Shown here piece after piece: positions 2,094-4,406 of a stretch of DNA of 64,000 nt. Numbering within the stretch: the stretch's first letter is position 1; every line of letters starts with the position of its first letter. This DNA comes from Methylobacter tundripaludum (GTDB lineage Bacteria > Pseudomonadota > Gammaproteobacteria > Methylococcales > Methylomonadaceae): positions 1 through 64,000 of the forward strand of contig NZ_PTIY01000010.1 in assembly GCF_002934365.1 (NCBI RefSeq). Direction: 5' to 3'. The position numbers and the translations under genes are program-made. The notes below the pieces were generated by a model, which saw only the letters and a program-made list of their open reading frames with translations, was not told the DNA's origin and ran no database searches.

Positions 2094-3350
2094 TTATTGC
2101 CGGATATGGCCGTCACCCAGAACGATGTATTTTAATGAGGTCAGTCCTTTTAAGCCTACCGGGCCGCGTGCATGCAGCTTGTCGGTGCTGATGCCGATTT
2201 CGGCGCCCAGTCCGTATTCAAAGCCGTCGGCAAAGCGGGTCGAGGCATTCACCATCACCGAGCTGGAATCCACTTCCCGCAAGAAGCGGCGGGCCAAGGT
2301 GTAATCTTCGGTCACAATCGCTTCGGTATGCCCTGAGCTATGCTGATTGATATGATCCATCGCCTGATCGATGCCGTCGACTATCCTGATCGATAGAATC
2401 GGGGCCAGATACTCTGTGTCCCAGTCTTCCTCAGTCGCTCTGATGCAGTTTGGAACTAAAGAACAGGTTTTAAGGCAACCGCGTAATTCGACGCCTTTTT
2501 CGCTGTATTTTTCGGCCAACAGCGGCAATACTTTTGCGGCAATGCTCTCGGCAACCAACAAAGTTTCCATTGCATTGCAAACACCGTAGCGATGGGTTTT
2601 GGCGTTGACCGCAATCCTGACCGCTTTGTCTATGTCGGCTGTGTCGTCGATATAAACATGGCAAATGCCGTCCAGATGCTTGATGACTGGAATTGTTGCG
2701 TCCTTGGAAATGCGTTCGATCAGGCTTTTGCCGCCGCGTGGTACGATCACGTCAACGTATTGGTTCATCGTGATCAGTTCGCCGACCGCCGCGCGATCCG
2801 CCGTCGCGACGATTTGCACGGCTTCCACTGGCAAACCCGCCGCTTGCAGGCCTTGGGAAATACAGGCCGCAATCGCCTGATTGGAATGGATGGACTCCGA
2901 GCCGCCCCTTAAGATACAGGCGTTGCCGGATTTAAGGCACAGAGCCGCCGCATCGACCGTCACATTGGGGCGGGATTCATAAATAATACCGATCACGCCC
3001 AAAGGCACGCGCATTTGGCCGACCTGTATGCCGCTGGGCCGGTAACTTAAATCAGTGATTTCGCCGACCGGATCGGGTAATGCGGCGACCTGTCTTAACC
3101 CTTCAACCATCGCTTGAATACCGGATGGCTTTAATTCCAGCCTGTCCAGCGAGGCCGCATCCAGGACGTTTTTCTTGCCCGCATCCAAATCCTTGCGATT
3201 TTCCGCAATCAACAGCTCATGACTGTTTTCAATGGCTGCGGCAATTTTCAGCAAGGCCAGATTTTTTTTACCTGACTCGGTGCGGCTTATTTCCCGACCT
3301 GCTTTCCTGGCTTTTTGCCCCAGGCCTTTCATGTATTCTTTGATATCCAC
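2094..3350 (-). CDS. proA: Gamma-glutamyl phosphate reductase
   Basis: A 418-residue ProA of the aldehyde dehydrogenase superfamily. It reduces gamma-glutamyl phosphate with NADPH to glutamate semialdehyde, the second step of proline synthesis. The catalytic cysteine lies in [13 protein letters not shown], and cofactor-binding segments such as [20 protein letters not shown] and LRGGSES are present. It is the first gene of the minus-strand operon proA-nadD-rsfS and has no gap to nadD. Length is typical. Confidence 0.95.
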
Positions 3351-3568
3351 TAGGTTCTCTTTAACTGGATGAATGTTTTGCGCGATTATACCGTTTAATC
3401 GATGCCTTTGACAGACTTAAACGCAACAACTATCGGATATTAAACAAGTTTATGAGTTAACTTTGCTATAGCTCAGGTTGCTTACGAAAAGACAATCGAT
3501 TACTTAAGAGGATAGATCCCTTAATAACTATCAACAAAATGAAAACAATCTATTAATTTAACGCTGCA

Positions 3569-3597
3569 TTGTAAGCATATAACTGCATCTGTATAAT
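3569..3597 (+). promoter_or_regulatory. Sigma-70 promoter for a candidate small RNA
   Basis: TTGTAA (3569-3574) and a perfect TATAAT (3592-3597) are separated by 17 nt, on the plus strand in a gene-free interval. Transcription would start near 3604. No open frame follows before the intrinsic terminator at 3796-3832. Confidence 0.6.
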
Positions 3598-3603
3598 CTT
3601 TAG

Positions 3604-3832
3604 CCATCAGATAATAAATTGCATTTTTCTCATCGGACTAGCCAATTAACGAATCGTCCGACATATTTTATTGCAGCGTTGCTATTTCCAACAATATTGT
3701 CATGAGATCGGGGCTGAACAGCCTATCTCGAAAAGTTTCATATACCTCCTCGTAGTGTGAAAGTTCAGAACTATCCAGTGTCTGTACACCTCTCCTCCCT
3801 TTGCCCTCACGGCACTGGGAGGTTTTTTTTGC
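3604..3832 (+). ncRNA. Candidate structured small RNA, about 230 nt
   Basis: The interval between proA and the lipoprotein gene, both on the minus strand, carries a complete plus-strand transcription unit. It begins with a good promoter (3569-3597). A hairpin TCGGAC (3633-3638) / GTCCGA (3656-3661) follows, then a hairpin GAGAT (3704-3708) / ATCTC (3725-3729) with an inner GGCT/AGCC stem, and finally an intrinsic terminator. An unpaired ACCTCCTC at about 3744-3751 and CTCTCCTCCC near 3793 are complementary to Shine-Dalgarno sequences, as in many small RNAs that block translation. No protein is encoded on the plus strand. I do not recognise it as 6S or another known family. Confidence 0.5.
3796..3832 (+). 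terminator. Intrinsic terminator of the candidate small RNA
   Basis: CCTCCC (3796-3801) pairs with GGGAGG (3819-3824), with an inner GCC/GGC stem separated by a symmetric internal loop, followed by eight T (3825-3832). The polarity is plus strand, although both flanking genes are minus strand. Confidence 0.75.
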
Positions 3833-3863
3833 CTGCAAAAAACTAAACAATCCTACTAAATAA

Positions 3864-4406
3864 CTAATCCTGACGATTCGGCAACCCTGCCAGCCAACCT
3901 TGGATCTTTTCCGCAGCCTGGTGCGTCAAATCAGTAAAGCCGCTGATTGCACCGGCAGCATCTGGCGTTTTAGTAAACTGTTGCAGGTAAAACTCCTGAA
4001 CGCCGATTTTTTTATTATTGGCGGCATAAGCTTCCACGGAGAAACGCAGCACCACTTTAGCCCGCTCAGGCGCTTCAAATTGTTGTTCAAAATCCTGAAG
4101 CCGAATTATCAACGCGTAATCTTTTGCCTTGCCGCTGAAAATCAAAAACTGTTCAAACAATTCAGGTGGCGAAGCAATCCAGCGATCCAAACCGTAATAC
4201 CTGACTTGAGAAGCCTCGGCAAAAAGCAAGCGATAACGGATACGGTTATCCCAAAGCCAAGTCGGCGCATTGATGTTAACCGACGCCCTACCCTGATGCG
4301 TCGGGGTTGACACAGGCAAGCCGAAATCATGCAATTCAGGCGGCTTGGCTGCATCGCTGCATGCTACAGTGAAAAATACTAGATAGCCGATTAATAAGTA
4401 TCTCAT
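3864..4406 (-). CDS. MCE transporter auxiliary lipoprotein (PqiC-like)
   Basis: A 180-residue lipoprotein of the ABC-type transport auxiliary family (PqiC/DUF330). The signal peptide ends in a lipobox with Cys16 (FFTVAC). A beta-rich domain follows, containing WLWDNRIRYRLLF, YYGLDRWIASPPELF and VVLRFSVEAYA. Such lipoproteins sit at the outer membrane and partner an MCE protein in lipid transport across the envelope. Its start overlaps the end of the MlaD-like gene by 4 bp, making it the last gene of the transporter operon. It takes the place that MlaB/MlaC genes hold in the E. coli mla operon. Confidence 0.85.
   Translation of the reverse strand: MRYLLIGYLVFFTVACSDAAKPPELHDFGLPVSTPTHQGRASVNINAPTWLWDNRIRYRLLFAEASQVRYYGLDRWIASPPELFEQFLIFSGKAKDYALIIRLQDFEQQFEAPERAKVVLRFSVEAYAANNKKIGVQEFYLQQFTKTPDAAGAISGFTDLTHQAAEKIQGWLAGLPNRQD

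Follow-up and report, generated by a model that had tools for sequence, protein, structure and literature searches.

A probable anti-Shine-Dalgarno small RNA of Methylobacter and its likely origin from a decayed watS gene

The locus and its conservation

The window, that is, the whole stretch of 64,000 nucleotides of Methylobacter tundripaludum DNA analysed here, contains a transcription unit on the plus strand (3569-3830) with a conserved promoter, a CUCC-rich conserved 3' part and a terminator with eight T residues. The features of the unit and its surroundings are the following.

2094-3350, minus strand: upstream neighbour with an aldehyde-dehydrogenase fold (Pfam Aldedh), read as proA (gamma-glutamyl phosphate reductase); syntenic in several relatives
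3527-3548, plus strand: predicted WatR-type operator, ACTATC-N11-AACAA, centred at about -65
3569-3574 and 3592-3597, plus strand: -35 element TTGTAA and -10 element TATAAT, separated by a 17-nt spacer, read directly
3602-3604, plus strand: region near which the transcript is expected to start, judging from the promoter
3603-3830, plus strand: predicted sRNA transcript of about 228 nt, delimited by promoter and terminator
3671-3722, plus strand: relic of a watS frame, final third only, with no intact ORF (nhmmer search by watS DNA profile, E 1.3e-4)
3704-3729, plus strand: hairpin GAGAU..AUCUC over the old ORF end, from the fold and the alignment of relatives
3727-3830, plus strand: 3' RNA module common to watS 3'UTRs (model R1, 43.8 bits)
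3736-3762, plus strand: hairpin UUUCAUAU / GUGUGAAA with ACCUCCUCG (3744-3752) exposed in an accessible loop
3766-3784, plus strand: short hairpin CAGA..UCUG, counterpart of a CAAGCAG..CUGCUUG hairpin in other members
3790-3830, plus strand: C-rich strand CUCUCCUCCC and intrinsic terminator, with compensatory changes
3794-3799 and 3817-3822, plus strand: terminator stem CCTCCC / GGGAGG, followed by T8 at 3823-3830
3864-4406, minus strand: downstream neighbour, a small lipoprotein-like gene convergent with the RNA; syntenic in relatives of four genera

The preliminary description of this DNA had placed minus-strand genes on both sides of the unit, as we also found, but its statement that the RNA is antisense to them was mistaken. 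The predicted RNA leaves a gap of about 250 nt to the upstream gene (3350), and its 3' end at 3830 stops 34 nt short of where the downstream gene ends (3864), so that it overlaps neither. The downstream gene, for which no Pfam match was obtained, is the last of an MlaE / ABC / MlaD operon. The unit lies beside this Mla operon in 15 of the 20 relatives of the conservation set (3-kb loci) and in the loci of three further genera, while the short loci of the other five relatives show no Mla-operon flank.

The TTGTAA/TATAAT promoter and the T8 intrinsic terminator reported in the preliminary description are both present by direct reading, although the automated terminator scan did not list the latter. 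Sigma-70 matches of equal quality numbered four in 4 kb against 4.5 expected, and the promoter score is thus not above chance. We take the unit to be real because it is conserved in about 20 Methylobacter genomes, not because of this score; judged from these sequences, it is very probably a genuine small regulatory RNA gene of Methylobacter. The fold of the predicted RNA is stronger than those of all 200 dinucleotide shuffles (z -2.7). An inverted repeat, AACGCTGCA / TGCAGCGTT, occurs at 3560-3568, just 5' of the -35 element, and at 3673-3681, within the transcript.

Some 20 other genomes of the host's genus contain close relatives of the unit, the named records being Methylobacter, such as M. 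tundripaludum SV96. Among 20 close relatives, identity amounts to 72% over the operator and promoter block (from the operator to the -10 element), 35% in the middle stretch between the promoter and the 3' part, 57% in the hairpin at 3704-3729 and 88% in the last 95 nt or so of the RNA. These segment identities suggest that selection keeps the RNA end and not the whole transcript. The structured part under conservation is 3704-3830, and a hairpin TCGGAC..GTCCGA at 3634-3662 falls in the unconserved middle. A minus-strand ORF of 60 codons (3668-3850) and several short plus-strand ORFs were rejected as genes because they are crossed by small insertions and deletions that vary among relatives.

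Probable remains of a watS frame and a putative WatR-type operator

Other genera of the host's family have, between the same promoter and 3' part, an intact ORF of about 50 codons for a small hydrophobic protein. A profile of this ORF finds matches, up to ten per genome, in 193 of 201 family genomes; across a sample of the order, every match listed falls within the family. Pfam returned for it a sub-threshold match to DUF6949 only, and NCBIfam nothing above cut-off. In a collection of plasmids, one relative was found, a watS-like gene (L205) carried by a plasmid of 61.8 kb in Methylobacter sp. YRD-M1 (NZ_CP091426.1, 21781-21921).

In Methylomonas sp. DH-1, Cha et al. (2023, PMC10355033) describe watS1-watS5 as ORFs that had escaped annotation and encode about 50 amino acids, with one membrane segment in each of WatS1-4; the LysR-type regulator WatR represses the genes, acetate induces them, and their products act by way of the WatABO efflux pump. 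The small ORFs of the relatives are much alike, as they belong to gammaproteobacterial methanotrophs, encode about 50 amino acids with a membrane segment, exist in several copies per genome and have the operator motif ATTGTT-N11-AACAA; their predicted transcripts are likewise intergenic. From size, membrane segment, copy number, host group and operator motif we infer that they are watS. The window copy differs from watS1-watS5 in being devoid of the ORF. The accessible part of that paper deals with the small proteins, and neither a 3'UTR RNA nor ORF-free copies are treated there (PMC10355033).

No intact watS frame of about 50 codons is present in the window, where only the last third is recognizable and the match to the watS DNA profile stops at the last watS codon. 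Six orthologs of the window unit match the same profile with E values of 1e-6 or better. In one relative (G003, locus L013), nearly the whole watS frame can still be read (E 1.4e-26), interrupted by one frame break and by TGA codons at two in-frame positions. At another locus, in a different genus (g39; L118, L135 and L139), the watS frame has decayed and the RNA module has been retained, apparently independently of the decay at the window locus.

The WatR consensus given by Cha et al. is ATTGTT-N11-AACAA (PMC10355033). The site in the window lies at exactly the expected position, 19 nt 5' of the -35 ATTGT, with one degenerate half-site and 3 of 11 mismatches to that consensus. Its orthologs with a readable site have one to four mismatches. 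With spacing fixed at 19 nt, zero to two mismatches were found in 32 of 40 ORF-less promoters and 27 of 31 ORF-bearing watS promoters, against at most 1.2% of shuffles; allowing up to 4 of 11 mismatches, the operator is found in 39 of the 40 ORF-less modules with a recognizable promoter. A search for the best motif match at any position did not set the window subfamily clearly apart from shuffles, and only the fixed-distance test (19 nt from the -35 element) is informative. Since the half-site is degenerate and the free scan behaves like shuffles, WatR control of the window locus rests on the fixed position and on the relatives.

A 3' RNA module present throughout the family

A covariance model (R1) with 15 base pairs was built from the 3'UTRs of 37 ORF-bearing watS genes, leaving the window out. 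On the 64-kb window its sole significant match is 3727-3830 on the plus strand (E 1.6e-7). On the whole host genome it gives three clear matches, which include the window copy (E 1.1e-5) and two others. Within the host's family, R1 has matches in 104 of 121 genomes, which represent 28 of 29 genera. Outside the family none was found: among 274 genomes from across the class only two match, both belonging to the family. The RNA family thus delimited, spread throughout one family of methane-eating bacteria, is apparently undescribed, no description having been found in the literature, mostly that open to read without subscription.

Covariation of the stems in relatives had been named beforehand as a check whose failure would speak against the unit, and covariation was found. 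In the R1 set of ORF-bearing relatives, two-sided changes affect 10 of 15 pairs, with the middle and terminator stems covarying, and the covariation score exceeds those of all 500 shuffles. In the window subfamily (29 sequences from four genera), two-sided changes affect 5 of 22 pairs; the stem of the CUCC-loop hairpin is kept in 29 of 29 sequences, with one-sided changes only.

Of 74 modules examined, 32 lie behind a watS ORF and 42 have no ORF, a split that is not a frequency, as the set was enriched for ORF-less candidates. Conversely, the watS paralogs L195-L205, one of which is in the host genome, mostly have a plain terminator at the 3' end and no CUCC module, and L198 has a reduced ACCUCCUCG motif. 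The existence both of modules without an ORF and of watS genes without the module indicates that ORF and RNA are separable parts.

A second free-standing copy of the module was found in Methylobacter at G000:C9:98160-98266 (L103) and at loci L071, L072, L073, L075, L080, L153 and L158. By eye, some of these second copies are near a methenyl-H4F cyclohydrolase-like gene. The one second-copy promoter that was scored, that of L153, is without a WatR-type operator, and the second copy may therefore answer to another regulator.

Proposed function and alternative readings

The heptamer ACCUCCU consists of the letters of the anti-Shine-Dalgarno end of 16S rRNA. It is accessible in the predicted fold of the window RNA, where six of the eight bases of ACCUCCUC (3744-3751) have unpaired probabilities of 0.91-1.0, and we propose ACCUCCUCG at 3744-3752 as a candidate anti-Shine-Dalgarno seed. 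By sequence and conservation the unit combines the features of a base-pairing sRNA, namely its own promoter, an intrinsic terminator and an accessible conserved seed. The reading that we favour, at a probability of roughly two in three, is that of a conserved, trans-acting anti-Shine-Dalgarno sRNA controlled by WatR and derived from a decayed watS mRNA; the trans-acting sRNA with anti-Shine-Dalgarno stretches of the preliminary description is still the best interpretation.

On this proposal, the reading frame of a watS-type mRNA, composed of the gene for a membrane protein of about 50 codons and a structured CUCC-rich 3'UTR, would have decayed, with selection continuing to act on operator, promoter and 3' RNA module. 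During stress by a weak acid (acetate), the synthesis of the RNA would be turned on by a WatR-like LysR regulator. The RNA would expose ACCUCCUC in a hairpin loop and a second C-rich stretch 5' of the terminator, and would pair with the Shine-Dalgarno regions of target mRNAs, lowering their translation. Hfq, which the host genome encodes (hfq), would probably bind the U8 tail. For the window locus itself, transcription, WatR binding, the use of Hfq, the pairing mechanism and the targets are all what we infer from these comparisons.

Shortly 5' of ATG codons in the host genome, the only instance of ACGAGGAGGT is the complement of the RNA gene itself; GAGGAGGT, which is shorter, occurs before start codons at seven sites against six for the backward control, without enrichment. 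No target stands out as a result. By eye, two long ORFs 3' of seed sites are a solute-binding-protein-like gene and a gene for a thioredoxin-like membrane protein. That no target stands out would also suit a sponge or decoy, whose CUCC motifs pair with other RNAs or whose operator titrates WatR, with no blocking of ribosome-binding sites. The many copies with the same motifs would make such cross-talk possible, but the seed has the very letters of the 16S anti-Shine-Dalgarno and presents them in a loop, as do the alpha-r14 sRNAs (PMC10746234), and we find a sponge or decoy improbable.

Also unlikely is that the unit is merely a dead watS gene, with a lingering promoter and terminator and a transcript free of function. 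Its ORF is clearly decayed and the last part of the RNA is a terminator, which any gene needs; nevertheless, the contrast between an 88% identical module and a 35% identical decayed frame in the 20 relatives extends to a hairpin loop outside the terminator, and the same module is found ORF-less at other loci. That the product is a short peptide encoded within the transcript seems very unlikely. Although ATGAGATC opens a frame of 17-18 codons in many relatives, the start codon is missing in several of them, the frame in the window lacks a good ribosome-binding site and coincides with what was once the watS C-terminus, with the most conserved part lying 3' of it.

We give hardly any credence to membership in a described family of C-rich sRNAs. 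At gathering score, Rfam gave no match in the window, 6S RNA included, and at relaxed thresholds nothing above cut-off, in line with the earlier remark that the RNA resembles neither 6S nor other recognizable RNAs. ErsA (Pseudomon-1, RF01719), with which the unit shares a C-rich stretch and a terminator region, reached 16.0 bits over the full model against a gathering score of 50, and alpha-r14 (cuckoo RNA, RF02344), whose anti-Shine-Dalgarno motif is of the same kind, 14.3 bits against 58.8; both were rejected, the scores being far under gathering. The Methylobacterium-1 RNA (RF01712, PMC2864571) is a motif of Methylobacterium and was set aside as not relevant. Whereas alpha-r14 sRNAs carry CCUCCUCCC motifs within hairpins (PMC10746234), three hairpins each with an unpaired CCUCCUCCC are not found in the window RNA: one loop has ACCUCCUC, and the CCUCCC near the RNA end is inside the terminator stem.

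The conserved anti-Shine-Dalgarno sRNA that we favour may nonetheless work like the cuckoo RNAs of Alphaproteobacteria (alpha-r14/NfeR1; CIN1 ccaF1-CcsR1-4) without belonging to them, an analogy that we propose. In both, hairpins expose anti-Shine-Dalgarno motifs of the CCUCC type and several homologous copies exist; the CIN1 loci, where RNAs of this type and a small DUF1127 protein come from one transcript, resemble the ORF-bearing relatives in this arrangement (PMC10746234, PMC10253847). The differences lie in the bacterial class, in sequence and structure, in the regulators, and in the small protein, which in the relatives of the window unit is not DUF1127 but comes from another family. Another parallel is VcdRP, a dual-function RNA of Vibrio cholerae, which like the ORF-bearing relatives joins a small-protein frame and a base-pairing RNA in one transcript (PMC8672173). 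There is no sign of homology with it, the window copy consists of RNA only, and base pairing is here a prediction.

A broader scenario can be advanced only tentatively and may well prove wrong. WatR would govern a multi-copy anti-Shine-Dalgarno RNA throughout the family, in three interchangeable forms (as small protein alone, as RNA alone or as both), and repeated decay of the ORF in a dual-function mRNA, at two loci, would have given rise to new sRNAs; the RNA would curb transport or metabolic proteins while WatS aids acid export.

Gammaproteobacterial methanotrophs are used for methane conversion. If the reading that we favour is true, their WatR acid-stress regulon would include an undescribed, family-wide sRNA layer, which would raise the question of whether the RNA accounts for part of the watS phenotypes reported. 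The passage of an mRNA through a dual-function RNA to a free-standing sRNA would be traceable in living species, and Gammaproteobacteria would have their own counterpart of the alphaproteobacterial cuckoo RNAs.
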